Position numbers and translations under genes: made by a program. The notes below the pieces were generated by a model. That model was not told where the DNA came from. It made no database searches and worked only from the letters and a program-made list of their open reading frames with translations. From the NCBI GenBank assembly GCA_001825315.1, contig MHVR01000004.1:12469-52176 (forward strand): a stretch of 39,708 bases of DNA, written 5' to 3'. The stretch is from Candidatus Zambryskibacteria bacterium RIFCSPHIGHO2_02_FULL_43_14 (GTDB lineage Bacteria; Patescibacteriota; Minisyncoccia; Phycocordibacterales; Zambryskibacteraceae). Positions within the stretch are counted from its first letter, which is position 1; each line of letters begins with the position of its first letter. Shown piece after piece: positions 1 through 39,268 of the stretch.

Positions 1-1289
1 CTACCTTTCTCTGCCCTTGACCACTCGATACGGTTACCATGGCCGTTTTCAAACTGATTAAAACTTGATTCTATGTCATGGAGAATACTGGACGCTTCCG
101 CTTCGGTAGCGGCTGAGGTTACAACCCTGATATTAAGAGAAATGAGGGGACTCTTGAGTTTGCGAGTAAACTGTTCCAAAGATGTTTGATCGACTACTCC
201 AGCCCGTTTAACCTTTTCCTCTTTCTCTTTCTCGACTTTCTTCTGGCTCTTAAACATACCGAAGATTTCTTTGGCTACGAATGAACCGACTGACCGTTCA
301 ATTTCTTCCAAAGCGTCTCCGATTTTTTCTCCCTTTTTGATTTTTTCAATAGACTTTTCAGAAGCTTTAACGAGCTCATCTTGGCGCGCGCCAATAATAA
401 ACTGAACAGCTGCACCTTCGCCTTCTCGATCTATCTTCGAAAAGCTGTTGAGAATTGCTCCAAGAGGGTCGACGTCAAAAGTCTCATATGGTTTTAAAGG
501 ATAGAGAAAATGCTTCGATAATTTAGCATAAGAAGCGACAGAAGCTCCCGTATAATTAAAAATATTGTAGTCATCCTTATGTTCGTGGACATGGGCGTTT
601 GGAAAAATAGCGAGAATCTGTTTTTCAAACAACTCTTTACGTGCGGTGGGTATTGAAACATAAAAGATGAATTCGTCGCTACCGTTTGAATTAGCGATTT
701 CGACGGAGAACCAGCCGGGATCTTTTTTGTCCGCCGAAATGGAAAGCATGCCGGAATAAAATTGCTCCATGCCGGAGATGAGTTCCTTGAGCTGTTTATT
801 TTTTTCCTCTTCGGAAACTTCAGGTAAACTGACTTCAAAAAGAGTCATGTGAAGTGGTTTCCAGAGCTCACTTTTTTCTTTCAAATCGGAAATCGAATAT
901 CCTGAAGCAATAAATTGAACAAGAAAACGGTGGAAGTCGTCGAGGAGATGCGGATTGTTGAGTCTTTCAATAACCGTCATGGCATTTCTGATACCCTTTT
1001 TCTGAAGAATATCGATAAAAGGTTCCAGATCGCGATCATGGGTTTCTGGCGAGAGTTCGAGCACAATAGCTTCCACTTCTTTATCTTTGACGAGATACTC
1101 TGGATGGAGCACTTCCTGAGGTTTTGTCGTGACGTATTGCTTAACTGTTTCCTGGGTCGCCTGACGCGGGGTCATTTCTATACCACTTTCTTTAGCTTGT
1201 TCCGTCCGTAGAATGGTAGATTCGCGAAGACGAGTTAATTCTTCTTGCGGACTGGTAATCTGTGAGCCTTCAAGGCCGGTTTTTTCCAT
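1..1289 (-). CDS. N-terminal part of a large conjugation/type IV secretion-like ATPase (partial)
   Basis: An open frame of 429 codons runs from ATG at 1289 off the left edge; it is absent from the ORF track because it has no stop in the window. The visible protein is hydrophilic, with no signal peptide. It has a Lys/Glu-rich helical stretch (KKVEKEKEEKVKR) around residue 360 and then a segment (SLNIRVVTSAATEAEASSIL) that resembles the region preceding the ATPase domain in CPR proteins annotated as type IV secretion DNA-binding/TraD-like. The Walker motifs would lie beyond the edge, so the ATPase call is inference from family memory. The start is supported by a TATAAT box 7 nt upstream and no SD. 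It could be another CPR hypothetical family. Confidence 0.6.
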   Translation of the reverse strand, partial: MEKTGLEGSQITSPQEELTRLRESTILRTEQAKESGIEMTPRQATQETVKQYVTTKPQEVLHPEYLVKDKEVEAIVLELSPETHDRDLEPFIDILQKKGIRNAMTVIERLNNPHLLDDFHRFLVQFIASGYSISDLKEKSELWKPLHMTLFEVSLPEVSEEEKNKQLKELISGMEQFYSGMLSISADKKDPGWFSVEIANSNGSDEFIFYVSIPTARKELFEKQILAIFPNAHVHEHKDDYNIFNYTGASVASYAKLSKHFLYPLKPYETFDVDPLGAILNSFSKIDREGEGAAVQFIIGARQDELVKASEKSIEKIKKGEKIGDALEEIERSVGSFVAKEIFGMFKSQKKVEKEKEEKVKRAGVVDQTSLEQFTRKLKSPLISLNIRVVTSAATEAEASSILHDIESSFNQFENGHGNRIEWSRAEKG

Positions 1290-1296
1290 ATGTCAA

Positions 1297-1302
1297 ATTA
1301 TA
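1297..1302 (-). promoter_or_regulatory. -10 box for a leaderless start of the 1..1289 gene
   Basis: On the minus strand TATAAT is followed by 7 nt (TTGACAT) and then ATG. A polymerase using this box would start at or next to the A of the start codon, leaving no room for an SD. Confidence 0.6.
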
Positions 1303-1353
1303 CATGATTTTGCGCTCACTTCCGACCAAGTTTCAATTTGTGGCCCATTATAC

Positions 1354-1382
1354 TGCCTGCCCGCCGAGCCCGGCAGGCGGGG
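1354..1382. repeat. GC-rich palindromic repeat (REP-like)
   Basis: CCTGCC and GGCAGG arms flank a GC-rich centre in otherwise AT-rich spacer. This CCTGCC...GGCAGG type of hairpin occurs as a dispersed intergenic element in many CPR assemblies (from memory). The rest of 1383-1531 is AT-rich, with only a weak GTCTT/AAGAC hairpin and no gene that I can see. Confidence 0.5.
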
Positions 1383-1531
1383 ATTTCTAAACTCATAAAC
1401 TAGAGGGATTATATAAGAATCAGTCTTGTAGAATTAAGACCTCTAATTGTTGTATAAAGTCTATACCCTTTAAGTGTCGTTTTATAGTATTTAAAATTGA
1501 AAATTTCGGGAAACATTGAAGTTCACAGAGT

Positions 1532-1654
1532 TCACAAGTTCTTTATAAAATTCTTTAGCATACTTTTGAGTTGCTGGCGACCATAACCACTTTTCAAATA
1601 CTTTTCTCTCGCTCGTGCATCAGCATTATTCACAAATGCATAGACGTAATTCAT
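1532..1654 (-). pseudogene. C-terminal remnant of a GIY-YIG nuclease
   Basis: A 40-codon frame too short for the ORF track ends with AREKYLKSGYGRQQLKSMLK. This matches the conserved tail of small UvrC-like GIY-YIG endonucleases (EREKYLKSGxGR...KxxLKNY). The N-terminal GIY and YIG strands and the catalytic Arg/Glu part are missing. The upstream sequence goes straight into hairpins and tRNA-Glu, so this is most likely a decayed fragment and not an expressed gene. Full-length members are about 80-95 residues. Confidence 0.6.
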
Positions 1655-1665
1655 TTGGATTGATG

Positions 1666-1772: not shown

Positions 1773-1881
1773 CTTCGACATTGCTCAGGGCAAGCCGTAA
1801 GAACAAGAATAATAGAAAATAGACGAGTAATCAAGAACGGATTTGTAGACAAAAATTATCCACAGTCAAGTGTTTTTGCTC

Positions 1882-1910: not shown

Positions 1911-1915
1911 GAGTG

Positions 1916-2098: not shown

Positions 2099-2111
2099 CA
2101 TATAGATAATA

Positions 2112-2498
2112 CTACTGAAATTCTATCTCGAACGGATACATTCCCATACCGCACATGCCTTGAAGGGTTAGAACTTGCTGACTGCCGATTTCTATATCTG
2201 TCGTATCTGACTGTGGTAAAACCTTGTTTATACCCAAGCTCGGAATACGGACTGATGATGAACAGTCAAATGTGCCGTTTGTATTGAAACGTATAACTGT
2301 AGGAATACCAGCCTTGGCAATACTTCTTCGCGGTTGATATCCGCCCTTGGCTCGTATTTCTATTACCTGTTTACCATCGACAACGCTGACATTATTGGCC
2401 GGTATTGAGTCGGCTGGCGAGACACCTCCTCTGGCAAGTACCAAAGCGCTGCCTATTAGGACTATTGCCACGGTAATTGAAATAACAGTTGCTTTCAT
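2112..2498 (-). CDS. Membrane-anchored cupredoxin-like copper-binding protein
   Basis: The protein is 128 aa from ATG 2498. One N-terminal hydrophobic segment (KATVISITVAIVLIGSALVLA) should act as signal peptide or anchor. A Greek-key style domain follows, with FDCSSS and the C-terminal CGMGMYPFEIEF typical of type-1 copper (cupredoxin_1) proteins, where Cys, Met and His/Cys side chains bind Cu. The probable role is extracytoplasmic copper binding or hand-off. It is the last gene of the copper cluster. I chose residue 16 of the track ORF as the start because TATAAT sits 7 nt before it (2506-2511), immediately after the upstream stop; the longer version would overlap the previous gene and add non-signal sequence. 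The terminator at 2067-2098 follows. Confidence 0.75.
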   Translation of the reverse strand: MKATVISITVAIVLIGSALVLARGGVSPADSIPANNVSVVDGKQVIEIRAKGGYQPRRSIAKAGIPTVIRFNTNGTFDCSSSVRIPSLGINKVLPQSDTTDIEIGSQQVLTLQGMCGMGMYPFEIEFQ

Positions 2499-2505
2499 AA
2501 ATGGA

Positions 2506-2511
2506 ATTATA
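2506..2511 (-). promoter_or_regulatory. Internal -10 box for leaderless cupredoxin transcript
   Basis: TATAAT begins right after the stop of the HMA-TauE gene and is followed by TCCATTT and then ATG. The cupredoxin may therefore be expressed independently of the CsoR-controlled operon. Confidence 0.55.
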
Positions 2512-3534
2512 TTAGAAATTAAACACCGGAGGCATGATGCCAATAATTACCATGCTATTGATGATGTTGAAGAGAGCGAACATAATCACGACGAGCCCGG
2601 CGGTTTTGAAGAAGATTCCCATCTTTGAACTCTGGTGAATACTGAATGAACTGAAGCTGATAAGCGCAAGTACAGGTAACGTGCCAAGGGCAAATGCCAG
2701 CATGGTTAATCCTCCTTGGAGGAAACTGCCGGTTGTGAGTGTGTATAACTGCATTGACTGGGTGAATCCGCACGGTAGGAAAAAAGTTGCCACGCCCACA
2801 AGAATTGGCGTGAATGTATGATTAAATTTCGACACTCCGCGCGCGTGCTTGGCAATGAATTTTGGCATCGACGGCTGGAACTTTTTCGCCCAATGAAATA
2901 CACCAAGCAGATTGATACCGAGAATAAGCATCACGATGCCGATAATCAAACTCAAGGCAAATGTTGCAGAGATATTTAAGGTAAAGGCTGAACCTATCGC
3001 ACCGATCACCCCGCCGAGAATGAAAAACGAGATAATGCGGCCGCTATGGAACATGAGCTGGGGTCTTACTTGGTCGCCCTCTTTGGCAAATGTTGCCGAC
3101 ATCGATAAGACTAAACTGCCAACCACTGCCATGCATGTCGAAAGCGATGCAATGATCCCAATTATGAATGCCGTGCTATAGGTGACATGATCAACATTTA
3201 CCAAGTTAACGATTCCCATTTTTTGGAGAAGCACGAACAAAACGGCAAAGGCCAGCGCTATCGGCAGTGCAATTTTGAAGTCGGACCATTTAGCTATATG
3301 TTTCTGTCTCTCGATAGAGAGCGTGTAGCCGTGCAGTTTTAGTACTTCGCTTAAGTCCCGTGCAACGTGTTCCGGCTCTTTGTCGCCAAAGTTGCCGGAT
3401 ACTTCAACATTAAGATGTTTAAGTGATGCTCTTACGTGAGAGATTTCTGATACATCGTTAAGTTCACTTTCTATCAGCACCACACACGCATGACAATGCA
3501 TACCGTTGACGTGGAATGTGTAGGTTTGTCGCAT
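2512..3534 (-). CDS. HMA domain fused to a TauE/UreH-type membrane transporter
   Basis: The protein is 340 aa from ATG 3534. Residues ~1-70 form a heavy-metal-associated domain with the motif GMHCHAC (CxxC). The rest carries about six to seven hydrophobic segments typical of the sulfite exporter TauE/SafE, UreH and DsbD_2 superfamily, with Cys in membrane positions (STCMAVV, FFLPCGFTQ). This fusion accompanies copper ATPases in many bacteria, and a role in copper or thiol movement across the membrane is inferred. The start is ambiguous: a GTG at 3558 gives 8 more residues. The ATG at 3534 places the HMA strand at the N-terminus as usual and has TATGGT 6 nt upstream. The gene is co-directional with all copper-cluster genes. 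Confidence 0.75.
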   Translation of the reverse strand: MRQTYTFHVNGMHCHACVVLIESELNDVSEISHVRASLKHLNVEVSGNFGDKEPEHVARDLSEVLKLHGYTLSIERQKHIAKWSDFKIALPIALAFAVLFVLLQKMGIVNLVNVDHVTYSTAFIIGIIASLSTCMAVVGSLVLSMSATFAKEGDQVRPQLMFHSGRIISFFILGGVIGAIGSAFTLNISATFALSLIIGIVMLILGINLLGVFHWAKKFQPSMPKFIAKHARGVSKFNHTFTPILVGVATFFLPCGFTQSMQLYTLTTGSFLQGGLTMLAFALGTLPVLALISFSSFSIHQSSKMGIFFKTAGLVVIMFALFNIINSMVIIGIMPPVFNF

Positions 3535-3580
3535 TATTCCACCATACAACATTTTCACAACAATTCATAATTATTAATTT

Positions 3581-4513
3581 TTAAATTCCGCACCCGCCCT
3601 GCTGCCGCTGCGGCGCGACTGTTTCTCCAGTACTAACCCCGCAACCGCTTCCGCTTCTTTGCTGTTGCGGTTCTGTGACTTGAGCAGCAATCTTTGCATA
3701 TCCCTGCGCGCTTGAGTAATTCATGCCAAGCATTTCCTGCGGATCCACATCTTTCCATTCAACACCTTTTCCTTTCATGTAAGAAGCAATTGTAAGATAG
3801 GTATCCGGAAACCAGTACGAATTCACGGCTAGGGCCGTTTTCCACATCTCTTGTTCGCTTACTCCCTGCGATGCCATGAGTTCCAAGAGTCCAAGCATAG
3901 CCATTCCGTGATTGCAGTCCGGAAAGTGGGTGGAATTGCCGCAACATGGCCTGTATATACCCCTCGACACTTTATCTACAAGCACCTGTTGTTCGGCAGT
4001 CAAATCAAAGAATATATGACGGCTGTAATGATCCATGGCATTGCCTTCGGCGATTGTCCAACCGCCTGTCGAGGCAAAGTTCCCGGCGCCTCCATATTTT
4101 GGATCTGTCATTTCACCTTGTTCTAAGATTTTGTTTTTACTGGCGAGACCCAAAGCCCAGAACAAATTAAGAAGGTACCCGGCGTTATCTTCGGTAAGCG
4201 TAAGTTTCCCGTTGTCTGTTCCGGACAATAAGTTTTCGTATTCATCAGTAAATTGCCCTCGCCCTTGGTAAAGAGCTCTGAATTTTTCTCCATCAATGGC
4301 TCCGACACTGACAAGTTTCGATCCGAGATCACCCCATGTGACGGGTAAAACTACATGCGCTCTTGGCAGAACGGCCTCCTCAAGCGCCGAAACGTAAGCA
4401 TTTTGTACTGCCGCTGTTTTATTTGGAGAGTCTTGCGGACCATAGAATATAGCTCCAGAAAGCATGGTCCCTGCTATGATAATGGCTAACGGTATAAGAT
4501 TTTTGTTTTCCAT
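3581..4513 (-). CDS. Conserved extracytoplasmic protein with CCGN...DCNHG motif, unknown function
   Basis: The protein is 310 aa. One N-terminal transmembrane segment (residues ~7-25) is followed by a large outer domain. The striking part is RPCCGNSTHFPDCNHGMAML near residue 190: three Cys and two His plus Met within 20 residues, followed by helical LLELMASQG. Upstream is an aromatic, acidic segment (GGWTIAEGNAMDHYSRH) with further His. The tail is Gly/Cys rich (GSGCGV and final GGCGI). These look like soft-metal ligands, and the gene sits between a small CC-tailed membrane protein and the HMA-TauE gene in a CsoR-headed operon. I do not recognise an enzymatic family. A role as an outer copper chaperone, store or oxidase-like factor is inference. 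Confidence 0.75.
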   Translation of the reverse strand: MENKNLIPLAIIIAGTMLSGAIFYGPQDSPNKTAAVQNAYVSALEEAVLPRAHVVLPVTWGDLGSKLVSVGAIDGEKFRALYQGRGQFTDEYENLLSGTDNGKLTLTEDNAGYLLNLFWALGLASKNKILEQGEMTDPKYGGAGNFASTGGWTIAEGNAMDHYSRHIFFDLTAEQQVLVDKVSRGIYRPCCGNSTHFPDCNHGMAMLGLLELMASQGVSEQEMWKTALAVNSYWFPDTYLTIASYMKGKGVEWKDVDPQEMLGMNYSSAQGYAKIAAQVTEPQQQRSGSGCGVSTGETVAPQRQQGGCGI

Positions 4514-4523
4514 ATTTTAAGTT

Positions 4524-4898
4524 TTAGCAACATTGCTTCATCTGTTCTTCAAGCTCGTGTACATGTTCTTTACTATCACTACTATCACTATTATCTTTAT
4601 GAACGAAGAGCTTGTAGGCAATGATGAGCAATACGATTAATTCAATTAAGATGGTAATTTTGGTGAGATTGGTAATCAGCACAAACGCAGCCGGCATGCC
4701 GATTGCAATTGTCGTAATTTTCCATCGGAGCGAATGGCGTTGGTAAGCAATGCCCACCACACTGCCGCCCATGAGAAGCGCGATAGGAAGTTGCAAGACT
4801 TCAAACGGCACGAGATGCCACGCGACAAGAGCGCTCATAACAAGCCAAAGGCCGCTTATCGTTACGCAGACCCAGCAGATTTTTAAGTGAGTAGTCAT
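4524..4898 (-). CDS. Small membrane protein of the copper cluster, C-terminal Cys pair
   Basis: The protein is 124 aa with three to four hydrophobic helices (residues ~7-30, 35-52, 60-80, 82-98). An acidic, Ser/His-containing tail (KDNSDSSDSKEHVHELEEQ) ends in MKQCC. Two further Cys lie in the first helix (CWVC). The function is not recognised; the terminal vicinal Cys and the His in the tail suggest metal or thiol chemistry. The next gene starts 10 nt downstream. TAATCT lies 8 nt before the ATG but may be incidental, because the ccdA-like stop is 11 nt upstream. Confidence 0.7.
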   Translation of the reverse strand: MTTHLKICWVCVTISGLWLVMSALVAWHLVPFEVLQLPIALLMGGSVVGIAYQRHSLRWKITTIAIGMPAAFVLITNLTKITILIELIVLLIIAYKLFVHKDNSDSSDSKEHVHELEEQMKQCC

Positions 4899-4909
4899 GG
4901 ATTAACAGA

Positions 4910-5689
4910 TTAGATGAATAATACGAGAATTCCCATAACAATCATGGCTATACCAGCCCACAACCGGACACTCTGGATTCTGGCTGTCTTCCATTCTTGC
5001 ATCTTGTCTACGACCAGCTTATCCGAGGTAATCCAGAGCACCGCCGCGAGGGGTATTATCAGAATGAGGTTGTAGAGGAAGAGATACCCAAATCCGGATA
5101 GATACGTCACTTGGTCTCTCAATAGTCCTATCACCATTAGATACGGACCGCCCATACAAGGGAACTGGCAGAGTCCTACCAAGAGCCCCAATCCGAATGC
5201 AGCGGGCAACGATACCTTCTCCATAAGCCTGCCCATCCACTTATGGGAGATAGCCGGTATCTTGAGTTTAATGGGGAAGTTCGGAAAGAATCTATTAAGG
5301 AGATTTAACAAACCGAATGTAATCAAGAGACCTGCTCCAAGCTTGCCCATGAAGTGCGGAGTGTTGAAGATGTGTAAGATTCTAAGGATTCCCAGTCCAA
5401 TTAGAAGATAAGCGGCAAATATTCCCGCAATGTAAGTGCCCCCAATCTGGATGATTTTCTTTCGGGTCATTTGCAGACCAAAAAGGAAAGCGACGGTTAT
5501 GAGGAGAATGGAGAATGAGCACGGGTGCACGCTATCGAGAATCGCCGCGATGAGCACGAGCGGTAGGAGCCATACACCCTGGTTACTTAAGTTCCAGATA
5601 AGTGGGGCGGTTACCGAGCTGTTTTTGAGTACTACAAGTCCGATAATGACGGCAACAACTACGGAAAGAATCGCTAGTATTCTTTTCAT
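4910..5689 (-). CDS. ccdA: CcdA/DsbD-type thiol-disulfide transmembrane transporter
   Basis: The protein is 259 aa with about seven hydrophobic segments. The two diagnostic Cys sites of the DsbD/CcdA membrane domain are present: DSVHPCSFSILL near residue 57 and GLCQFPCMGGPY near residue 170. The family moves reducing equivalents from cytoplasmic thioredoxin to outer thiol proteins. In this operon it would keep Cys ligands of the neighbouring outer proteins (DUF1573, CCGN protein, cupredoxin) reduced; that link is inference. It starts 5 nt after the DUF1573 stop, so it is translated from the same message. No soluble thioredoxin-like domain is attached. Confidence 0.8.
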   Translation of the reverse strand: MKRILAILSVVVAVIIGLVVLKNSSVTAPLIWNLSNQGVWLLPLVLIAAILDSVHPCSFSILLITVAFLFGLQMTRKKIIQIGGTYIAGIFAAYLLIGLGILRILHIFNTPHFMGKLGAGLLITFGLLNLLNRFFPNFPIKLKIPAISHKWMGRLMEKVSLPAAFGLGLLVGLCQFPCMGGPYLMVIGLLRDQVTYLSGFGYLFLYNLILIIPLAAVLWITSDKLVVDKMQEWKTARIQSVRLWAGIAMIVMGILVLFI

Positions 5690-5694
5690 AGGAA

Positions 5695-6195
5695 CTATGG
5701 AGTCACTATCGCTCTTATCTCAAACTGAAGCGTGCTACCCGACGCATCAGTAAGATAAATAAACCGATCAATTGCCCCGACACCAGCCGGTCCGTGAGCA
5801 TTCGGGTCGTATACGACCCTTATATCCCGCGACTCTCCGGCCTTGATAGTTTCGTTGGCGGGTGGAACATAGTTCATACCCTCCATACCGAACGGCCCCT
5901 TTTTTCCGTTGGCACTTTCTATATACGCGCTAGTACACATGCATGAAGTACTGATCTTTTTCACGTAGATATCCTTGTCCGAGGAATTGGTGACTTTAAA
6001 CACGTGGTCAACCAGCCCATTCCTCATGGATATTGTTCCGAAATCATACAAGGTTTCTAATGCTTGAAGAGCGTTGGCAGAAAGATTTGAGTTTGGGTTT
6101 GCCGAAACTCTATTCTGGGCCGAGCGACCCCACCACACGAGCCCTGCAATTCCAAGAATGACAATGAGAATACTGACAATCGTTTTGCTTTTCAT
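5695..6195 (-). CDS. Membrane-anchored DUF1573-domain protein
   Basis: The protein is 166 aa. An N-terminal anchor (residues ~5-23) precedes an Ig-like beta domain. YDFGTISMRNGLVDHVFKVTN is the canonical DUF1573 opening strand pair, and STSCMCTSA matches the conserved CxC-containing loop. DUF1573 proteins are outer or periplasmic with unknown biochemical role and often lie next to thiol-redox genes, as here with ccdA 5 nt downstream. The CxC in the loop is a plausible metal or redox site. No SD is visible. The 83-nt gap to the upstream gene holds no obvious terminator. Confidence 0.82.
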   Translation of the reverse strand: MKSKTIVSILIVILGIAGLVWWGRSAQNRVSANPNSNLSANALQALETLYDFGTISMRNGLVDHVFKVTNSSDKDIYVKKISTSCMCTSAYIESANGKKGPFGMEGMNYVPPANETIKAGESRDIRVVYDPNAHGPAGVGAIDRFIYLTDASGSTLQFEIRAIVTP

Positions 6196-6278
6196 TTGAT
6201 TTAGTTAATAGCACTAATAATGGACCTGAATAGGAATGGAGATGGCACGAAAGAAAGCTTGACTTTCAAACGCGCTTG

Positions 6279-6680
6279 CTAGATTGAGGGGCTATGTTCG
6301 AAAAGTGATAACCAGGAGATAAGTCGGTACTTGGTTAAATTAAATTCAGATCTATATTCTCTAAGTCGCTCTGTAATAAACTGACTATATAAAAATAAGA
6401 ACTTGAAAAGATAGGCAAAGCCTATTAGAGAAACTGTAACCAAAAGGATTGCGAAAATGACGAATGTGTTTATTGGAACATTAAATAGTGATTGGATAGC
6501 TGAAACATGGTGCTCCATAATGTTTTCAATACTTGTTGGGCAAGGAGCATTTGACATCAGCGAAACTGCGCAGTTTGACTGCTGATGGCCCATACCGTGA
6601 TCCAATGCTGTTAAGCCAAAAACAGCAATGAAGAGAAGACCTATTATAAGGAACGAAGAGGTGGTTGCTTTCATGTTCAT
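6279..6680 (-). CDS. Small Cys/His membrane protein of the copper cluster, unknown function
   Basis: The protein is 133 aa. The first helix (residues ~8-26) is followed by a short outer loop with HGMGHQQSNCAVSLMSNAPCP: two His, several Met and two Cys, a potential Cu(I) site. A second helix (residues ~68-95) leads to a basic cytoplasmic tail. No family is recognised by me. Similar short proteins with His/Met/Cys loops accompany copper or mercury genes in CPR genomes (from memory, low certainty). The start may also be the Met at codon 3. TATGCT lies 9 nt upstream of the ATG, so it may have its own promoter inside the operon. Confidence 0.65.
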   Translation of the reverse strand: MNMKATTSSFLIIGLLFIAVFGLTALDHGMGHQQSNCAVSLMSNAPCPTSIENIMEHHVSAIQSLFNVPINTFVIFAILLVTVSLIGFAYLFKFLFLYSQFITERLREYRSEFNLTKYRLISWLSLFEHSPSI

Positions 6681-6696
6681 GCGTATACTAGCATAT

Positions 6697-9033
6697 TTAC
6701 AACTTTTTTGCTTTTAGACGAAGGGAATTACCAACCACCGAAACGCTGGAGAACGCCATGGCCAGCCCGGCAAACACAGGCGAAAGCAGCCAGCCGAAAA
6801 CGGGGTAGAAAATCCCACTTGCCAACGGAATACCGACGATATTATAGATGAACGCCCAGAAAAGATTCTGCTTGATGCCGCGCATTGTTATTTTGGAAAG
6901 CGAAATCGCTTTAACGAGCTTCGAAATATCGCCGTGGAGGAGTGTGATGCCGGCAGTCTCAATAGCCACGTCCGTACCGGTTGCCATAGCAATACCGACA
7001 TCAGCCTGAGCAAGCGCTGGTGCGTCGTTCACGCCGTCGCCAGCCATAGCTACTACTTTCCCCTCCGATTGCAGTTCTTTTATTTTCTTGAGCTTGTCGT
7101 CGGGAAGCACTTCGGCCACCACGTCGTCTATACCGACTTGTTTTGCTATAGAGAGAGCCGTGTTTTTATCATCTCCGGTGAGCATCACGATTTTAATGCC
7201 GAGCTTGTGAAGATTTTTTACCGCCTCCACTGCTTCCGGCTTGATGGCATCCGCGACCATAAATACGCCAAAAACTTTTCCTTCAGTCGCTAGAATAACC
7301 GGCGTTTTCCCTTCGGTAGTTTCTTTTCGAAGTTCTTCTTTGCCAAAAGCGATATCCAAGTCGGCAATAAGCTTTATATTGCCGGCAAAGTATTCTACAC
7401 CGGAAACAGTCCCTTTGAGCCCTTTGCCCTTTATGATTTCAAAACTATCCACTTTAACGAGTTCTATGCCTTTTTGTTTGGCATATTCCGTGACAGCATG
7501 AGCAATCGGATGTTCAGACTTGTTTTCAAGTGAAGCTAAGATTGAGATTATTTCCTTTTCATTTTTTGATGAATAATTTTTGATACTTACCAATTCCGGC
7601 TTTCCTCGGGTCAAGGTGCCTGTTTTATCCACTACCACCACATTCACCTTGTGAAGCTTTTCAAGCGTGGCCGCATCCTTGACCAATATGCCTTCGCCCG
7701 CACCTTTGCCAACTCCAACGATAATCGCTGTAGGCGTGGCAAGACCGAGCGCGCACGGGCAGGCAATGACCAAGACTCCGACAAAAGAAACCAGACCGTA
7801 TGAGAGCGCCTGCGCAAATCCGAAATATTGAGAGCCGACAAGAAACCAGAGCCCGAGTGAAAGAAAGGCGATTACTAAAACTATTGGCACAAACATACCT
7901 GAAATCTTATCAGCCAAAGCTTGTATTGGCGCCTTACTGCCTTGCGCTTCTTCTACCATCTTTATAATGTTCGCGAGCAAAGTCTCAGAACCGACTTTTG
8001 TTGCCTTAAAAGTGAACGAGCCGCTTGTATTAAGCGTGCCGGCGACAACCGTATCTCCTATCTTTTTGTCTACCGGCATCGGCTCGCCTGTTACCATAGC
8101 TTCATCAATAAAAGACTGGCCTTCCACAATGACACCGTCAACCGGAATTTTGCCGGCCGGTTTTACGATAATCAAATCTCCATGCACGACTTCGGCAATA
8201 GGCACCTCCATTTCTTTGCCATCGCGAATGACAAGCGCGGTTTTGGCTTGCAGGTTTAAAAGTTTTTCAATAGCATCACCGGTTTTCAGTTTGGAGCGTA
8301 TTTCAAGATACTTGCCGAGCGTAATAAAAACAATAACGATTATCGTTACATCATAGTAAGACTGCTCAACATTAATAAAGGGCCGAAGAGTTTCTTCGAA
8401 AGCGGTAACGGCAAAACTGTAAAGAAAAGCGGCAGACGTGCCCAGTCCTATGAGGGTGTCCATATTGGCTTTACCGTAGCGGAGAAAACGATAGAATCCG
8501 AGAAGATAGGGTTTACCGACTACAAAAAGCATATATGTCGCCATTACAGGCAATATATGATGGAAAAATTCTTCCCAAACATACGGCACGGCTGGCACTA
8601 TCTTAAATTGCGCAAAAATATCCCAACTTAAAATAACCACGCTTAAAACGGCAAGCGGAATAGCTGACATGACTTTCCATTTCATATCTCTAAGTTCGGC
8701 GAGTTTCTCACTTTTTGTCTGATTAAGCCCGAGGTGCGCCGCGTGCTCATCTTCTGACATTCCCATTTCACTTGCACTAAGCGGAGTCGAGGTGAGAGCT
8801 GTTGGTATGAGTAATGAATATCCAAGTGGTTCAATATGTTTGGAAAGGACCTGGGGATTTGTTTTTGAAAGGTCGAAAGAAACCTTGGCTTTTTCAGTAC
8901 CATAGTTTACCTCCACAGAATGGACACCTTCCGCTTTTTTCAAAGTCTTTTCAATGATACTGGCGCAGGAAGCGCAGTGCATGCCTTTTATCTTAAATGT
9001 TCTTGCTTCGGTCATATTATTTATAGTGAGCAC
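6697..9033 (-). CDS. copA: Copper-exporting P1B-type ATPase
   Basis: The protein is 778 aa. There is one N-terminal HMA domain (GMHCASC, residues 17-23), an A-domain TGEP motif, the membrane metal site CPCALGLATP near residue 424, phosphorylation motif DKTGTLT near 471, HPIAHAV in the N-domain and GDGVNDAP near 664. The last helices carry YN and MAFSS, the residues that with CPC mark Cu(I)-selective P1B-1 pumps. It exports Cu(I) from the cytoplasm. It follows csoR by 6 nt. The start is GTG at 9033 or ATG at 9015; the HMA alignment allows both. Confidence 0.95.
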   Translation of the reverse strand: MLTINNMTEARTFKIKGMHCASCASIIEKTLKKAEGVHSVEVNYGTEKAKVSFDLSKTNPQVLSKHIEPLGYSLLIPTALTSTPLSASEMGMSEDEHAAHLGLNQTKSEKLAELRDMKWKVMSAIPLAVLSVVILSWDIFAQFKIVPAVPYVWEEFFHHILPVMATYMLFVVGKPYLLGFYRFLRYGKANMDTLIGLGTSAAFLYSFAVTAFEETLRPFINVEQSYYDVTIIVIVFITLGKYLEIRSKLKTGDAIEKLLNLQAKTALVIRDGKEMEVPIAEVVHGDLIIVKPAGKIPVDGVIVEGQSFIDEAMVTGEPMPVDKKIGDTVVAGTLNTSGSFTFKATKVGSETLLANIIKMVEEAQGSKAPIQALADKISGMFVPIVLVIAFLSLGLWFLVGSQYFGFAQALSYGLVSFVGVLVIACPCALGLATPTAIIVGVGKGAGEGILVKDAATLEKLHKVNVVVVDKTGTLTRGKPELVSIKNYSSKNEKEIISILASLENKSEHPIAHAVTEYAKQKGIELVKVDSFEIIKGKGLKGTVSGVEYFAGNIKLIADLDIAFGKEELRKETTEGKTPVILATEGKVFGVFMVADAIKPEAVEAVKNLHKLGIKIVMLTGDDKNTALSIAKQVGIDDVVAEVLPDDKLKKIKELQSEGKVVAMAGDGVNDAPALAQADVGIAMATGTDVAIETAGITLLHGDISKLVKAISLSKITMRGIKQNLFWAFIYNIVGIPLASGIFYPVFGWLLSPVFAGLAMAFSSVSVVGNSLRLKAKKL

Positions 9034-9039
9034 GTCGAA

Positions 9040-9300
9040 CTATTTTCGTTTAAGCCTGTAAACTTTCAATATCTCCTCCGTGGCCTTATCCTTTTTGCCA
9101 CTTTGGATTTGAGCCACCAAACAATGACTCAAGTGATGTTCAAGAAGCAGGTCTTCCATATTCGACAACGCCTGCTTTGCCGCTGATGTTTGGGTTATAA
9201 CATCTATACAGTACTTATCTTGACCCACCATCTCTTGCAGACCACGAATCTGACCTTCAATTATCTTCAACCTTCTGATTAATGACTTTTTCTTATCCAC
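9040..9300 (-). CDS. csoR: CsoR-family copper-sensing repressor
   Basis: The protein is 86 aa, all-helical (DUF156). The Cu(I) fingerprint is exact: Cys31, His56 and Cys60 with the 25- and 4-residue spacing of M. tuberculosis Cys36/His61/Cys65. The Cys-only pattern of CstR and the HCHH pattern of nickel RcnR are absent. It binds DNA without copper and releases on Cu(I). It is the first gene of the copper operon and autoregulated through the palindrome at 9309-9328. The start is GTG 6 nt after the -10 box. The GGAGG just before the GTG is only 1 nt away, too close to be an SD, so a leaderless start is more likely. Confidence 0.92.
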   Translation of the reverse strand: MDKKKSLIRRLKIIEGQIRGLQEMVGQDKYCIDVITQTSAAKQALSNMEDLLLEHHLSHCLVAQIQSGKKDKATEEILKVYRLKRK

Positions 9301-9306: not shown

Positions 9307-9334
9307 AGTATACCCCCTAGGGGGTATATGTCAA
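9307..9334 (-). promoter_or_regulatory. CsoR operator overlapping the copper-operon promoter
   Basis: The -35 TTGACA (9329-9334), a 16-nt spacer and -10 TATACT (9307-9312) are seen on the minus strand. The perfect 20-bp palindrome TATACCCCCTAGGGGGTATA (9309-9328) fills the spacer and enters the -10. This is the GC-centred TACCCC..GGGGTA type of CsoR site, so bound repressor would block polymerase directly. Confidence 0.92.
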
Positions 9335-13053: not shown

Positions 13054-13063
13054 TATAATCTTA
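13054..13063. promoter_or_regulatory. Overlapping divergent -10 boxes of yqeY and rmuC
   Basis: Plus-strand TATAAT (13054-13059) ends 6 nt before the rmuC ATG, and minus-strand TAAGAT (13058-13063) ends 6 nt before the yqeY ATG. The two boxes share 2 bp, so only one polymerase can open this site at a time. Confidence 0.65.
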
Positions 13064-13065: not shown

Positions 13066-14052
13066 ATGAATTGGATTTTAATCATTCTTTTGGTGTTAGT
13101 GGCATTGAACGCCGTATTGATTATTATTTTGGCGCGCAAAAGAGATGATGAAAAAGAAGAAAGTAAAACCGATGGACTTATATTACTTCAAAATCAAATG
13201 AAAGATCTCAATAAAACGGTCAATGATAATATCAAGGAGATCATAGAGAAGGTTACTAGAGTAGACGAGACTGGTAAACAGATGATTTCTTTTGCCGATC
13301 AATTGCAGTCGCTCCAAGATATTTTGAAAAACCCAAAACAGCGTGGCGTACTCGGCGAATATTATCTCGAGACTCTGTTAAAAAATGTTTTACCTCCGGG
13401 TTCTTATCAGATGCAATACGCCTTTCCAGATGGCACTATCGTAGATGCGGTAGTGTTTGTGAAAGATAAAATTATTCCTGTCGATTCAAAATTTTCCTTG
13501 GAGAATTACAACCGCATCGTCGAGGAAAAAAATGAAGTGGAGAAAGAAAAGCTAGAAAAAACGTTTGTAGCCGATCTTAAAAGCCGTATTACGGAAACTT
13601 CTAAATATATTCAGCCGTCGCAAGGCACAATGGATTTTGCTTTCATGTTCATTCCGCATGAGGCGATCTATTACGATTTAATTATCAATAAAATCGGCGC
13701 GCTTAAAGAAGATTCGGAGACCTTAATCCAACGCGCTGCTTCCAAATATCATGTTCTGATAGTTTCGCCTACTTCTTTTCTTGCATATCTTCAGACAGTA
13801 CTCCAAGGTCTAAATGCGCTTCATATTGAAGAGAAAGCAGTAGAGATTATCAAGAGGGTAGAGGAACTTGGCCGACATCTCAAGAGTTATGAGGAGTATT
13901 ATGTCAAACTCGGCAACTCTCTCTCAACTACCGTCAATCATTACAATTCTGGCTACAAAGAATTTGGCAAGGTAGATAAAGATGTGTTACGTATCACTGG
14001 CACTGGAGCGGGTCTTGAGCCATTGACTTTAAATAAACCTTCAGTAGAATAG
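13066..14052 (+). CDS. rmuC: RmuC family DNA recombination protein
   Basis: The protein is 328 aa from ATG 13066. One N-terminal transmembrane helix (residues ~2-22) and a coiled coil (~30-90) precede the RmuC nuclease-like domain, recognised by GVLGEYYLETLLKNVLPPG, the FPDGTIVDAVVF...IPVDSKFSLENY motif and FAFMFIPHEAIY. The family limits inversion/recombination at repeats and has a PD-(D/E)XK-like fold. The track start (13045) is upstream of the -10 box, so ATG 13066, 6 nt after TATAAT, is preferred. It is followed by rplU after 7 nt. Confidence 0.9.
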   Translation: MNWILIILLVLVALNAVLIIILARKRDDEKEESKTDGLILLQNQMKDLNKTVNDNIKEIIEKVTRVDETGKQMISFADQLQSLQDILKNPKQRGVLGEYYLETLLKNVLPPGSYQMQYAFPDGTIVDAVVFVKDKIIPVDSKFSLENYNRIVEEKNEVEKEKLEKTFVADLKSRITETSKYIQPSQGTMDFAFMFIPHEAIYYDLIINKIGALKEDSETLIQRAASKYHVLIVSPTSFLAYLQTVLQGLNALHIEEKAVEIIKRVEELGRHLKSYEEYYVKLGNSLSTTVNHYNSGYKEFGKVDKDVLRITGTGAGLEPLTLNKPSVE

Positions 14053-16489: not shown

Positions 16490-16568
16490 AACACTATGCT
16501 ACCAGTCCGTATGAAGTTGGCAATCTGGAAATTGGTGAAAAACTAGTGTGCAAGTTGGGGAGAACGGA

Positions 16569-17981: not shown

Positions 17982-17996
17982 ATTATATGATAGAAT
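17982..17996. promoter_or_regulatory. Divergent leaderless promoters of cysS and ctpA
   Basis: Minus TATAAT 17982-17987 is 6 nt from the cysS GTG. Plus TAGAAT 17991-17996 is 7 nt from the ctpA ATG. The -35 region of each lies in or near the other gene. Confidence 0.62.
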
Positions 17997-19793: not shown

Positions 19794-19799
19794 TATAAT
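19794..19799 (+). promoter_or_regulatory. -10 box for the Ada-like/ABC exporter operon
   Basis: TATAAT ends 8 nt before ATG 19808. No SD is present in the 8 nt (TAGACCTT). Confidence 0.55.
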
Positions 19800-19807: not shown

Positions 19808-20212
19808 ATGAATATAGCAGAGACAGTCTCTTATGACAAGGATGGCCATATTGAACGTTTTCCGCTCTTTCGGAAGCTATTTTTATCGCTCGTTATTATA
19901 TTAGTCGCTTTGCTTTCATTCGGCATTGGCCAATTATCTGTGACTGGAGATAGGGAACCAATAAAAATCGAGTATGACCAGAGTCTTACGGAACAAACTG
20001 CAACAGTTGTAAATGCAGTCCAAGCAGTGCCTGCACCGCGTAATTCTATCCAACAGAGCGAAGTGGTGGTATCCAAAAACAGCACTAAATATCATTACTC
20101 TCATTGTTCTGGCGCCAAGCAAATCAAAGAGGAGAACAAGATTATTTTTGCCACGCCGACAGCAGCAGAAGCAGCCGGCTACACTCTGGCCGCCAATTGT
20201 AAACCAAAATAA
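19808..20212 (+). CDS. Single-pass membrane protein with Ada-type metal-binding-like domain
   Basis: The protein is 134 aa. A cytoplasmic N-terminus, one helix (residues ~24-46), a linker, and a C-terminal ~50-residue module follow. The module reads [20 protein letters not shown]...[11 protein letters not shown], the pattern of the Ada Zn-binding domain (HxxxC ... AxxxGYxPCxxC) but with only two Cys (HCSGA and NC), so zinc binding is doubtful. The orientation predicts the module outside the cell. It overlaps the ABC permease by 1 nt (TAATG), so it likely works with the exporter. The function is unknown. Confidence 0.7.
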
Positions 20213-24600: not shown

Positions 24601-24679
24601 CAATCCCTCCTCCCCTATTGTGTCACGGGGAACTGGTTCTACTTTAATTATATACCAAAATGAATATAATGATAGGTCA

Positions 24680-25908: not shown

Positions 25909-26580
25909 TCAATATTCTGCGTTGAGAAGTGCCCAATTCTCACTTTTTGGCAGAAGCGGTTTGGAACCTTGCGGACACAGCAAACACTCTTCTGGAAACC
26001 ACGCAGGCATCGGCCGAACGATGAGAGCGGCGGTCTCTTTACCATTAATGTACTTAAGATCGGATCGGTTCACGATGGCGACAACAAGTGTCAGTACGAT
26101 ACCTCCAGCATTGATGACAGCCGTGGTTGCAAGTTCGACATTGCCGCCGGTAGTAAGCACATCATCGCAAAGCAGAACCGTTTCCCCCGACAAAACCGTA
26201 CGCTTGGGATCACTGAAGATCATACTCTTGTTGCGACCATACTCCACTTCCGCCGGAGAAGCCCATGTGCATGGGTAATTGCGGCGCCCGCCAATTTCAT
26301 CAGAGATGAATTCGGCAAGCTTTGTTGCTCCTGTCTCCGGCCCAACAACGCGGTCAATTTTCCCGATATTGATGCCCGTCTCGATGGAATCGACAAGATC
26401 TGAAGCCGCTTCACGAAGAAGCTGTCCATCTGAAACCACCAACCGACTGTTGAAGAAACCAGTCGAGTGTTTCCCAGATGAAAGTAGAGCATGTGGACGT
26501 TTTGGATTACCATCATGAATCCAGAGCGCACACTTATCTTGATACACTCGAATCCAGTTTTCCTCAGTCCTGAAAGACAT
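25909..26580 (-). CDS. pyrE: Orotate phosphoribosyltransferase-like protein
   Basis: The protein is 223 aa from ATG 26580. LLSSGKHSTGFFNSRLV and the PRPP-binding VLLCDDVLTTGGNVE (~residue 137) identify a type I phosphoribosyltransferase of the OPRT kind; the C-terminus adds ECLLCPQGSKPLLPKSENWA with two Cys. It would convert orotate and PRPP to OMP. The start is fixed by GGAGGTGCTTATG; the track start 12 codons upstream lacks support. The promoter TTGATT-17 nt-TAATGT gives a leader of about 40 nt, in which GCAC/GTGC can form a hairpin with GGAG in its loop. Another nucleobase specificity is possible. Confidence 0.82.
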   Translation of the reverse strand: MSFRTEENWIRVYQDKCALWIHDGNPKRPHALLSSGKHSTGFFNSRLVVSDGQLLREAASDLVDSIETGINIGKIDRVVGPETGATKLAEFISDEIGGRRNYPCTWASPAEVEYGRNKSMIFSDPKRTVLSGETVLLCDDVLTTGGNVELATTAVINAGGIVLTLVVAIVNRSDLKYINGKETAALIVRPMPAWFPEECLLCPQGSKPLLPKSENWALLNAEY

Positions 26581-26644
26581 AAGCACCTCCAAAAGTGCAG
26601 TTTCTATTGATAACATTAGTCGAAACCGAGCGCTAAATCAATCT

Positions 26645-26993: not shown

Positions 26994-28322
26994 TTAGAGA
27001 GATGGAAGATAAGCAAGCGGGTCGAGATATGCTTTAAGATCAGCAACTGGGACAAATGTGTGTTGACAATGTTTACTGTTGGTAAATTGTCTGATTTGAA
27101 CACCTTGACTGACAAAGAGGCCGAGATGTAAATGCGGTCCTGTCGAGTATCCGGAACCATTGACCCCTGGCGTTCCTCCGGAATAACCAATAATTTCTCC
27201 TGTTTTAACATCTTGACCGGTTTGTACAATAGAAGCCGAGAGGTGCGCATAGACGCTAGTGAGACCGTTGTTGTGTTTTATAAGTATCCATCTGCCATAT
27301 GAACCACAAATTGACTTACCTTCTTTCTTAAGCTTCGCATTCATTTCGTCAGTATTGCCCATACCTTCTATCGTGCCAGAGAGTACGGCCTTAATCGCTG
27401 TGCCCATAGAAGCCCTGAAATCAACACCATTATGCCCCCTGCCATCGTAAGCGCCGGAACGAGCAAACGCCGTATCGCCAAAGGTTTGAGTAACTGTAAC
27501 ACTATTGAGAGGCCAGGCTAAAATACCATGCCTCGGGGCAGGAAATAGAGAGGGATCAAGGGTAATTCTAAGTTCAGACTCCAATCTAAACAGATCTTCT
27601 TCGAACTCTTTCTGACGAGCTAAATTCTCTGATAACATTTTCTGGTATTCGGTTTCTTTATTTTTAGTCTCGGCCAAAAGTTTCTCTTTCGCTTTTTGAT
27701 TTTCTTCAACCACTGATTTCTGCCCGCTCAACTGCCCCTTGAGACTTAACTGTTCTTTCTTCACTTTTTCCTTTTGTTCTTTCTCTTGGTTGAGAATCTT
27801 GCGGGTCTCGCGCAAAGCGTTAATTTCTTCCCCCAACCTGTTGTTGAGACCTGTAAGCTGACTGTTGTCTCTCCAGACATCCGCAAGCCGAACATAAGCA
27901 AGTAGACTAAGCAAGAGTGATTTGGAATCATATTCGGAGAGTGCTGAAAGGGTATCTGCAATCGCTTTCCGATGAGTAATAATCTGTCGTTCCTTCTCAC
28001 CTATAGTGTTTTCGAGTGATTGGATGGTCAGATTGCTAGAAGTGATTTTTGATTGGGTAATATTGATATCTGCTGCAAGTTTTTTTCTTGTCGTATCGAG
28101 AGATTTAACAGCACTGCCAAGAGATCGGCTTTCCTTGTTGACTGCTTCAAGTTCGGCTTGAAGCTTCTTTTGTTCTTCAAGAAGAGCATCACGCTCTTTC
28201 CGAACACTTTCAATTTGTTGTTCTAACTCACTTGGATTAGCGGCACTTGTAGTAGAAATAGGTAGTAAGAAGTAGGTAGTAAGAAGTAGAAGAATTAATA
28301 GACTGGTGAGTTTCCATCTCAT
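26994..28322 (-). CDS. EnvC-like M23 (LytM) peptidase with coiled coil
   Basis: The protein is 442 aa. A signal peptide (LLILLLLTTYFLLPISTTSA), a long coiled coil (residues ~30-250, Lys/Glu/Gln rich) and a LytM domain follow. The domain has GHNGVDFRA, SVYAHLS and GPHLHLGL, giving the H..D / H / HxH zinc ligands, so it should be catalytically active. EnvC-type proteins cut or regulate cutting of peptide cross-links at division. It overlaps gltX by ATGA. The signal-peptide codons contain a 14-bp tandem duplication (28259-28286). Confidence 0.9.
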   Translation of the reverse strand: MRWKLTSLLILLLLTTYFLLPISTTSAANPSELEQQIESVRKERDALLEEQKKLQAELEAVNKESRSLGSAVKSLDTTRKKLAADINITQSKITSSNLTIQSLENTIGEKERQIITHRKAIADTLSALSEYDSKSLLLSLLAYVRLADVWRDNSQLTGLNNRLGEEINALRETRKILNQEKEQKEKVKKEQLSLKGQLSGQKSVVEENQKAKEKLLAETKNKETEYQKMLSENLARQKEFEEDLFRLESELRITLDPSLFPAPRHGILAWPLNSVTVTQTFGDTAFARSGAYDGRGHNGVDFRASMGTAIKAVLSGTIEGMGNTDEMNAKLKKEGKSICGSYGRWILIKHNNGLTSVYAHLSASIVQTGQDVKTGEIIGYSGGTPGVNGSGYSTGPHLHLGLFVSQGVQIRQFTNSKHCQHTFVPVADLKAYLDPLAYLPSL

Positions 28323-29176
28323 TTTTCTCTTAATTTAGCAAGATTAAAGTGTTTTCTCGCCACCCAAGCTAATTTTTTCTCGTCGAATATAGCGCCGCCT
28401 TTATGCACCCGCGAGAAATCAAAAACTTTAATCAATTCCTCGAGTGTAAAAATTTCTTGTTCGGTACCTGGATTCCAGCCTAGAAGCGCCAAATAATTGA
28501 TGATGGCTTTCGCCGAGTATCCTTTGCTACGGTAGTAGTTGAGCGAGACTGACTCGCCATGCTTACGCTTAGAGAGCTTTGAACGATCTTGGGCAAGAAT
28601 AAGCGGTAAATGAACGTAAAGAGGCCTAGCCGCGCCAATCGCCTCTTGGATCAAGATTTGTCGAGGTGTATTAGAAATGTGATCTTCGCCACGAATCACA
28701 TGTGTTATACCAGATTCGAAATCGTCAATTACTACTGCTAGATGATAAAGTGGTTCATCCGCGCTTTTTGCTATAACAAAATCTTTTAATTCTGTTGTAT
28801 CAAATTCAATCTCTCCACGAATTAAGTCGTTAAATTTTACTTTTTTGTTTGGATTTTTAAAACGTATGACCTTGTCGTCAGCTTGATAAATCGAACCGTC
28901 GCTTAGCATTTTCTCTATGTAATTTTTGTATATCTCTCCCCTATCGGACTGTCTGTACAGCTCATCGTAGCCAAGTCCAAGCCAACTTAAACCTTCAATA
29001 ATATCGGTTTCAAATTCTTTTTTTGATCTTTCTTTGTCGGTATCTTCTATTCGTAAAATAAATTTGCCTCCGTGTTTACGAGTATAAAGAAAATTAAATA
29101 AAGCGGTCCTGACGCTGCCGATATGTAATTGACCTGTCGGCGAAGGCGCGAAACGTGTGATAATTTTTTGACTCAT
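28319..29176 (-). CDS. gltX: Glutamyl-tRNA synthetase lacking the anticodon-binding domain
   Basis: The protein is 285 aa. The class I catalytic domain is complete: RFAPSPTGQLHIGSVRTALF (HIGH-type HIGS, residues 18-21), LRIEDTDKERS, HVIRGEDHISNTPRQ and LSKRKHGE (KMSKS-type, ~residue 204). It ends at EKKLAWVARKHFNLAKLREK, where normal ~470-residue GluRS enters the helical anticodon-binding domains. The stop overlaps the start of the M23 gene (ATGA), so no downstream domain remains. GluQ-RS is similarly short, but this sequence keeps the full GluRS stem-contact region and standard motifs. tRNA-Glu(CTC) is in the same window. Confidence 0.88.
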   Translation of the reverse strand: MSQKIITRFAPSPTGQLHIGSVRTALFNFLYTRKHGGKFILRIEDTDKERSKKEFETDIIEGLSWLGLGYDELYRQSDRGEIYKNYIEKMLSDGSIYQADDKVIRFKNPNKKVKFNDLIRGEIEFDTTELKDFVIAKSADEPLYHLAVVIDDFESGITHVIRGEDHISNTPRQILIQEAIGAARPLYVHLPLILAQDRSKLSKRKHGESVSLNYYRSKGYSAKAIINYLALLGWNPGTEQEIFTLEELIKVFDFSRVHKGGAIFDEKKLAWVARKHFNLAKLREK

Positions 29177-31424: not shown

Positions 31425-31443
31425 AATTATCCGAATTATAGCA

Positions 31444-36600: not shown

Positions 36601-36606
36601 ATTATA
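36601..36606 (-). promoter_or_regulatory. -10 box for leaderless scpA
   Basis: TATAAT, then AGCGAG, then GTG. The two palindromes 36633-36655 and 36664-36701 lie just upstream, where an operator or activator site would be expected. Confidence 0.65.
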
Positions 36607-37950: not shown

Positions 37951-38897
37951 GATAATTTAAGTCCTACTTTTTCTCTTACTTCTTCCATCTTCTTTTCTGC
38001 CCGAGCACGAGCTTTGTCACTTCCCGCTTTCAATACTTCGAGCACCGATTTTTTATCCTTCGCCAGTTCGACGCGCTTCTCACGCATCGGTGTGATAAAT
38101 TTTTTCAAATCTTCTATCAAAACTTCTTTGAGTTCTTTGTACTGACCTTTCTTTTCTTCATACAACTTATCCAACGACTCTTTATCTTTAAGCAAGGCAT
38201 GGATAGCATAAACATTTTCCGGTTTTTCACCGGAAGAATCAGTCACAATACTCATGACTGATCTACTTATCTCTTCATCAGTAGCAAAAAGTTCAATGGT
38301 ATTACCGTAACTCTTACTCATTTTCCGACCATCAGTACCGGGTATAGTGGCAAGATTTTCGAGAATCAAAGAGTCTGGTAATTTAAAGGTGTCTCCGAAA
38401 GTACTATTAAACTTCTGTGCCATATCACGAGCAATCTCGATATGTTGTTTCTGATCCTGTCCCACCGGCACCACATCGGCATCTTGGATGATGATATCGG
38501 CCGCCATCAAAATTGGATAATCAAATAATCCCACACTCGGTTCTTTGCCATTAGCAATGGCATCTTTGTAAGCATGTGCTCGCGATAGATAAGGCACGGT
38601 CGTAAGACAATTGAGGATCCAAGTGAGCTCCGTCACTTGTGGTACATCTGATTGCTTATAGAGTGTCACCTTCTCTGGATCAAGACCAATAGCAAGATAA
38701 TCAAGTAATACGCCAAGGATATTCTCCCGCAGCTCATCTTTATTTTGGACACTGGTCAAAGCATGCAAATCCGCAATAAAAATATAACTATTGTAAGAAT
38801 CCTGCAACTCCACAAACTGCTTCATGGCGCCAAAGTAGTTCCCAATGTGCGGCCTGCCGGTAGGCTTGACTCCCGAGAGTAGTATTTTCTTGTTCAT
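37947..38897 (-). CDS. trpS: Tryptophanyl-tRNA synthetase
   Basis: The protein is 316 aa. SGVKPTGRPHIGNYFGAM contains HIGN (residues 17-20); VPVGQDQKQHIEIARDMA and KMSKSYGNTIEL (~192) are canonical. TAAAAT lies 13 nt before the ATG, allowing a very short leader. It is co-transcribed with aspS (4-nt overlap). The region 38898-38989 upstream contains one copy of the repeat that also covers the arsR promoter. Confidence 0.96.
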   Translation of the reverse strand: MNKKILLSGVKPTGRPHIGNYFGAMKQFVELQDSYNSYIFIADLHALTSVQNKDELRENILGVLLDYLAIGLDPEKVTLYKQSDVPQVTELTWILNCLTTVPYLSRAHAYKDAIANGKEPSVGLFDYPILMAADIIIQDADVVPVGQDQKQHIEIARDMAQKFNSTFGDTFKLPDSLILENLATIPGTDGRKMSKSYGNTIELFATDEEISRSVMSIVTDSSGEKPENVYAIHALLKDKESLDKLYEEKKGQYKELKEVLIEDLKKFITPMREKRVELAKDKKSVLEVLKAGSDKARARAEKKMEEVREKVGLKLS

Positions 38898-38962
38898 ATT
38901 AATAAAATCTATTTTAGCAGTAATTTAATGATAACTCCATCGCAATTTTAAATACCACCATG

Positions 38963-39000
38963 ATTCGTTCATTCTCACGAATTAGAGAATCATAGACATT
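38963..39000. repeat. Copy A of a repeat flanking arsR
   Basis: It starts ATTCGTTCATTC and ends GAGAAT-CATA-GACATT. It overlaps the arsR stop codon and lies upstream of trpS. It matches copy B (39273-39312) in the same orientation over about 38 bp with a small inner change (TCACGAAT versus GTGAGAAT). Confidence 0.65.
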
Positions 39001-39256
39001 TTATGATGGGAAAGAATATACCCGGGATGGAATCATTTAATCTGTAGAATACTTCCGAGCTTCTCTGTTCTTTATCTAATATCCCCGCCCCGAATAGGAC
39101 GGCAAGATGTCTAGATGTGGATTTGAATGAAAGATGGATAGCCCCAGCAATTTCGCCAACATTCGCTTCTTTATCTTTCTTCAAGAATGAAATAATCACC
39201 AGACGTCTTTTATTGGCCAGGGCTTTTAATATGCGCTCCAAGTCTCTTTCTTTCAT
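38990..39256 (-). CDS. ArsR-family winged-helix regulator
   Basis: The protein is 88 aa. LERILKALANKRRLVIISFL, EIAGAIHLSFKSTSRHLAVLFGAGIL (recognition helix) and the beta-wing SSEVFYRL make a clear ArsR fold. The metal site ELCVCDL of ArsR/SmtB is absent and the only Cys is the next-to-last residue, so it does not look like a metal sensor. TAGAAT is 6 nt before the ATG, so it is leaderless. Copy B of the repeat, with TCATTC-TCAC-GAATGA, lies just upstream of the -10 and could be its own operator. Confidence 0.88.
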   Translation of the reverse strand: MKERDLERILKALANKRRLVIISFLKKDKEANVGEIAGAIHLSFKSTSRHLAVLFGAGILDKEQRSSEVFYRLNDSIPGIFFPIIKCL

Positions 39257-39262
39257 GTATTT

Positions 39263-39268
39263 ATTCTA
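39263..39268 (-). promoter_or_regulatory. -10 box for leaderless arsR
   Basis: TAGAAT, AAATAC, then ATG. The putative operator (39273-39312) begins 4 bp upstream and covers the -35 region. Confidence 0.6.

Follow-up and report, generated by a model that had tools for sequence, protein, structure and literature searches.

Start-codon -10 promoters, loss of the anti-Shine-Dalgarno sequence and probable leaderless initiation in a Zambryskibacteria genome and its relatives

Deinococcus has leaderless genes in which the -10 element lies just upstream of the start codon, and it retains the anti-Shine-Dalgarno (anti-SD) sequence of the 16S rRNA. Deinococcus-Thermus is also named as having a prominent upstream bias (PMC5397173). 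In Mycobacterium many transcripts start at the start codon (PMC3898074, PMC4633059), and ATG or GTG, not TTG, work at the 5' end (PMC4633059). According to the accessible text on GeneMarkS-2, its leaderless class shows a -10-like signal near gene starts for up to 40% of transcripts and includes 21.6% of bacterial genomes (PMC9581028). The accessible part of an anti-SD survey gives 128 taxa without the consensus anti-SD, mostly Bacteroidetes, Tenericutes and Proteobacteria, with Chryseobacterium, Elizabethkingia, Blattabacterium, Mycoplasma and Carsonella as examples, and CPR bacteria are not named in that text (PMC6107228). A partial search of the open literature yielded no paper tying CPR to leaderless mRNA or to anti-SD loss.

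The window is the whole stretch of DNA analysed, 39,708 nucleotides, and belongs to a Candidatus Zambryskibacteria genome of 617,965 bp in 23 contigs that is 93.9% complete (G000, the source genome). The whole data set consists of metagenome-assembled genomes with genes from one simple purpose-made caller, which uses coding potential and ignores upstream motifs; it gave 608 usable starts in the source genome. The spacer d is the number of nucleotides between the end of the -10 hexamer and the start codon, the relaxed motif is TANNNT and the strict one a match in 5 of 6 positions. The hexamers found before start codons in the window are the following.

1297-1302, minus strand: TATAAT, d=7, before the ATG of the gene starting at 1289
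2506-2511, minus strand: TATAAT, d=7, before the ATG of a cupredoxin-like gene starting at 2498
9307-9312, minus strand: TATACT, d=6, before the GTG of a csoR-like gene starting at 9300 (start absent from the caller)
13058-13063, minus strand: TAAGAT with TGn, d=6, before the ATG of yqeY, start 13051
13054-13059, plus strand: TATAAT with TGn, d=6, before the ATG of rmuC, start 13066
14045-14050, plus strand: TAGAAT, d=9, before the ATG of rplU, start 14060
16496-16501, minus strand: TAGCAT with TGn, d=6, before the ATG of dnaB, start 16489
17982-17987, minus strand: TATAAT, d=6, before the GTG of cysS, start 17975
17991-17996, plus strand: TAGAAT with TGn, d=7, before the ATG of ctpA, start 18004
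19794-19799, plus strand: TATAAT, d=8, before the ATG of the gene starting at 19808
24665-24670, plus strand: TATAAT, d=9, before the ATG of murF, start 24680 (the caller chose 24557, which makes the gene longer)
31435-31440, minus strand: TATAAT with TGn, d=10, before the ATG of ftsW, start 31424
36601-36606, minus strand: TATAAT, d=6, before the GTG of scpA, start 36594
39263-39268, minus strand: TAGAAT with TGn, d=6, before the ATG of an arsR-like gene, start 39256

TANNNT at d=6 or 7 was thus found ten times, against about 2 expected by chance for the approximately 38 starts in the window. An earlier note on this DNA had listed these ten pairs of hexamer and spacer, and all read back from the sequence as it gave them; its near cases (an Ada-like gene at 8, murF and rplU at 9 and ftsW at 10) are likewise present with those spacers. 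The starts of yqeY, murF and csoR are those chosen in that note; the caller put yqeY and murF elsewhere and left csoR uncalled. The statement that none of these genes has an SD agrees with the lack of SD enrichment in the whole genome but needs a small correction at csoR, where GGAGG occurs inside the spacer, one base before the GTG, and is too near that codon for SD action. Elsewhere in the window, at pyrE (26580-26616), a GGAGG stands some 7 nt ahead of the ATG in a lineage without the anti-SD, which may be a relic or chance. Judged from translations only, a metal-handling cluster occupies 2112-9300, with the cupredoxin-like protein, heavy-metal-domain membrane proteins, a copper P-type ATPase and the CsoR-like regulator. 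A glutamyl-tRNA synthetase-like ORF of just 285 amino acids (28319-29176), presumably shortened relative to the usual enzyme, adjoins a peptidase-like gene (26994-28322).

Across the source genome, TANNNT at d=6 precedes 57 of the 372 genes that are first in their unit (12.3 expected) and 25 closely following genes on the same strand (3.3 expected), with a background taken from the genome itself of about 1.5-3.3% per position. At d=5 the counts are at background (14 and 5, respectively), which gives the peak a sharp edge. In the unit-first genes d=3 is also at background and d=4 somewhat raised, while d=7, 8, 9 and 10 have 33, 21, 32 and 19 hexamers. Strict hexamers number 0 at d=5 and 31 at d=6. 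A count independent of the caller gives TATAATN6ATG 31 times, TATAATN5ATG 7 times and the reversed pattern 5 times, and 150 kb of E. coli run through the same pipeline shows no -10 peak. Start-codon promoters of this kind are supported, on the evidence of sequence, as a conserved and genome-wide feature. Under relaxed criteria 44% of all genes have a start-codon hexamer compared with 17-19% at decoy positions, an excess of about 26%; under stricter criteria the shares are 30% and 7-9%, an excess of about 22%. The earlier note's description of leaderless transcription as the default is thus not established, because the demonstrable excess covers only about a quarter of the genes. Its restriction to this genome is too narrow, as the pattern spans the class and the phylum.

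The position and composition of the peak indicate a promoter. In sigma-70 promoters the last base of the -10 element is at -7, and +1 therefore falls on the start codon when d is 6. The peak at this spacer and its abrupt end at d=5 are what would be expected if the hexamer spans -12 to -7 and the start codon begins with +1. The extended -10 dinucleotide (T-15 G-14) is found in 38% of the genes with d=6 and in 5% elsewhere (p=1e-14), and this is repeated in the relatives G026 and G017. Well-separated genes have 72 extended -10 sites in the 95 nt upstream of them, of which 33 fall at d=6-10 while the remaining ones are thinly scattered. The -35 element is weakly enriched (26% versus 17%), and a pyrimidine at -1, as in an initiator, is suggestive but not significant. 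The hexamer is also conserved: in 59 ortholog pairs from the source genome and G017 with aligned N-termini, G017 has it for 20 of the 28 source genes that carry it at d=6-10 and for 7 of the 31 that do not (p=2e-4), with no co-occurrence at a control position. For cysS, 14 of the 16 members of the genus have TATAAT exactly 6 nt before the start codon, and for ctpA all 16 have an extended -10 at exactly 7 nt, while the letters of the spacers vary.

Genomes that do not use SD are known to be biased towards A/T ahead of their starts (PMC5397173), and the source genome encodes an S1-domain protein of 356 amino acids, so the hexamer might instead act in translation, as a stretch that is rich in A/T, unstructured or bound by S1, as proposed for Bacteroidetes, on mRNAs with ordinary leaders. 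This is very unlikely, since no model of a ribosome-binding site predicts a precise TATAAT hexamer with a one-nucleotide edge and TG at the extended -10. In addition, the start codons of the divergent genes yqeY and rmuC are 14 nt apart and those of the divergent genes cysS and ctpA 28 nt apart; neither gap fits a conventional leader plus promoter, and a leader would put the promoter inside the neighbouring gene. It is even less probable that the promoters are near the starts but the starts themselves are mis-called, the mRNAs having short leaders and being translated from an in-frame codon further downstream. Individual genes with uncertain starts (yqeY, murF and csoR) lend themselves to that idea, but in the ortholog pairs that were used the alignment of the N-termini begins with the called codon. 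It does so across the genus for cysS and ctpA as well, where the spacer leads into ATG or GTG in every one of the 14 cysS and 16 ctpA cases. A promoter whose transcript would begin at or next to the start codon is the reading followed here.

A strict -10 at d=6-8 precedes 17% of the ATG starts, 8% of the GTG starts (4 of 48; the difference from ATG is not significant) and 2% of the TTG starts, which is the RTG pattern of leaderless starts (ATG and GTG, not TTG) with a small count for GTG. TATAATN6GTG, counted without annotation, is not enriched in the source genome, so the support for GTG stands on orthologs: those of cysS alternate between ATG and GTG behind an unchanged TATAAT at 6 nt. The inclusion of GTG among the leaderless starts, as the earlier note had it, agrees with these results. 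SD-like words before starts are not above background in the source genome, G017, G026, G172 or the named loci of the order. In the E. coli control SD words precede 38% of unit-first starts against a background of 7-9%, and the overall range is 38-79% of starts. Neither of the marks of a canonical SD user, enriched SD and a present anti-SD, was found.

The 3' end of the 16S rRNA is on contig C17 at 955-1008 (...AAGTCGTAACAAGGCACGGGTAGCGGAAGCTGCTCGTGGAGTAATTCAATTTGA). It follows an insertion at about 375-808 that interrupts the gene near its 3' end, an intron with a LAGLIDADG-type ORF (QNLTPDYIVGLVDGEGSF...). An Rfam search for 16S in the source genome gave no match because the gene is at a contig end and broken by the intron; the pattern of the tail located it. 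Helix h45 is well formed with its GGAA loop intact, and the tail after it is GGAGTAATTCAATTTGA, with no CCUCC in the approximately 13 nt that follow. In place of the E. coli-type GAUCACCUCCUUA there is GAGUAAUUCAAUU, and the mature 3' end predicted by homology, GGAGUAAUUCAAUU, also has no CCUCC. This loss strongly suggests the adapted initiation mechanism that the earlier note had proposed. The idea that the altered tail pairs with an SD of a new kind is not supported, as 6-mers complementary to this tail are unenriched; complementary 4-5-mers are a little more frequent where genes are closely spaced, probably due to A/T content. IF1, IF2, a full-length IF3, the S1-domain protein, LepA and RsmA are present in the source genome. 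Searches with tblastn found neither Era nor RbfA there, and for YchF the best match was Obg, so that candidate was rejected. Era binds GAUCACCUCC and is missing from most CPR (PMC10582724). As for loss of bS21 as a correlate, matches to PF01165 are weak and scattered, with none at E<=0.001 in the source genome.

CCUCC is missing from the 16S tails of all 23 relatives first read, and is present in G225, a further member of the same order. An exact scan of named genomes placed the tail of the order in Candidatus Zambryskibacteria, Nomurabacteria, Taylorbacteria, Adlerbacteria, Yonathbacteria and Campbellbacteria. Going by these names, the lineage falls in Patescibacteria, class Paceibacteria. 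In a survey of the class Paceibacteria with tails from 121 genomes in 35 sampled families, the anti-SD is lost in 55, partial in 16 and intact in 50. Families f27, f166 and f184 each hold more than one anti-SD state, so the anti-SD has likely been lost repeatedly in the class, to judge from these tails. Most other families of the phylum retain CCUCC or a close variant. Partial degradation also occurs in the phylum outside the class, with the variant tails ACACTTCC, ACATCTCC and ATATCTC in f93 and f82.

Start-codon promoters and anti-SD state are associated in the class survey, where the pooled ratio of TATAATN6ATG to TATAATN5ATG is 2.40 in genomes with a lost, 2.45 with a partial and 1.49 with an intact anti-SD. 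The association has p=7e-4 at the level of genomes and p=0.04 at the level of families, and the family-level statistics are weak. Five anti-SD-lost sets were also compared with seven CPR sets (six intact and G457, presumed intact). Strict hexamers at d=6-8 precede 18.1% of unit-first genes in the lost sets and 9.9% in the comparison sets, 16.7% versus 3.5% of the genes that follow a same-strand neighbour at a distance of 0-25 nt (p=2e-7), and 6% versus 1% of overlapping genes. Only in anti-SD-lost genomes do closely spaced downstream genes match the promoter frequency of unit-first genes; the interaction of anti-SD state with gene position has p=0.012, in a test where the named-order loci and the genomes of one order are non-independent.

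The peak is also present with the anti-SD intact, in relatives within the class and in many families of the phylum (ratios of 2-7.6 in f76, f144, f44, f51, f71 and f40), so anti-SD loss is not required for it. Leaderless use thus probably came first and anti-SD loss after, as far as genome comparisons can order them, and the trait may be ancestral and broader than this clade. These relatives, in which SD use is low too, are what would be expected if CPR bacteria are generally leaderless and the anti-SD simply drifts away in small genomes with little SD use, unrelated to the promoters. That account is a serious one, although we hold it to be the less probable, because anti-SD loss goes along with a larger peak and, above all, with more promoters among closely spaced genes. 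Furthermore, the families without the peak (f53, f43, f95, f168, f178, f174 and f155) have an intact anti-SD wherever the tail was read, except for one-base variants in two f43 genomes. Families f53, f43 and f95 have zero excess of the start-codon -10 and constitute a contrast group for the evolution of initiation. At the other end, TATAATN6ATG occurs 124, 113, 83 and 62 times in the f44 genomes G149, G197, G284 and G292, compared with 10, 14, 4 and 2 for the reversed pattern; by these counts they probably head the phylum sample in leaderless use.

The explanation with promoters at start codons, leaderless mRNAs and an SD route closed by anti-SD loss is, taken as a whole, one in which we have high confidence. 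Housekeeping-sigma promoters with an extended -10 would begin the RNA exactly at the start codon when d is 6 and within about four bases of that point at d=7-10. The ribosome would then bind the leaderless mRNA through its 5'-terminal AUG or GUG with no SD helix, and a 16S rRNA without the anti-SD would leave the SD route closed. Since internal ribosome entry on a polycistronic mRNA would be hard without the anti-SD, downstream genes may have gained start-codon promoters of their own. Closely trailing genes would have theirs inside the upstream gene, and overlapping genes would probably be reached through translational coupling. A wider version, in which a large part of Paceibacteria has dropped SD outright through repeated anti-SD loss, with clusters rewired with start-codon promoters, coupling only for overlaps and leaderless initiation as the main ribosome entry, is put forward tentatively, its chances being a little short of even.

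If it is true, the usual mechanism of start finding has been replaced, with leaderless initiation as the main ribosome entry in free-standing bacterial genomes. The class offers a replicated natural experiment because it allows comparison of relatives whose anti-SD is intact, degraded or lost, even inside the families f27 and f166. This makes it testable whether SD initiation is replaceable by leaderless initiation and whether the polycistronic logic of operons disappears along with the anti-SD. For annotation, gene finders that expect an SD will misplace starts here, and a -10 at 6-10 nt is a better guide.

The pattern resembles that of Mycobacterium in that ATG and GTG are favoured over TTG at leaderless starts (17%, 8% and 2%), but there SD serves the leadered genes, while here SD is unenriched and the 16S tail is without CCUCC. 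As in Deinococcus, a -10 hexamer stands at a fixed distance before the start codon throughout the genome; unlike Deinococcus, the anti-SD is lost and genes within clusters also carry start-codon promoters. The -10-like signal near gene starts is shared with the leaderless class of GeneMarkS-2, for which the accessible text neither names CPR nor makes a tie to anti-SD loss (PMC9581028). The lack of CCUCC after h45 and of SD enrichment is shared with the anti-SD-less bacteria of the earlier survey (PMC6107228), whereas in Paceibacteria the loss is patchy over the 35 sampled families and coupled with sharp leaderless promoters.
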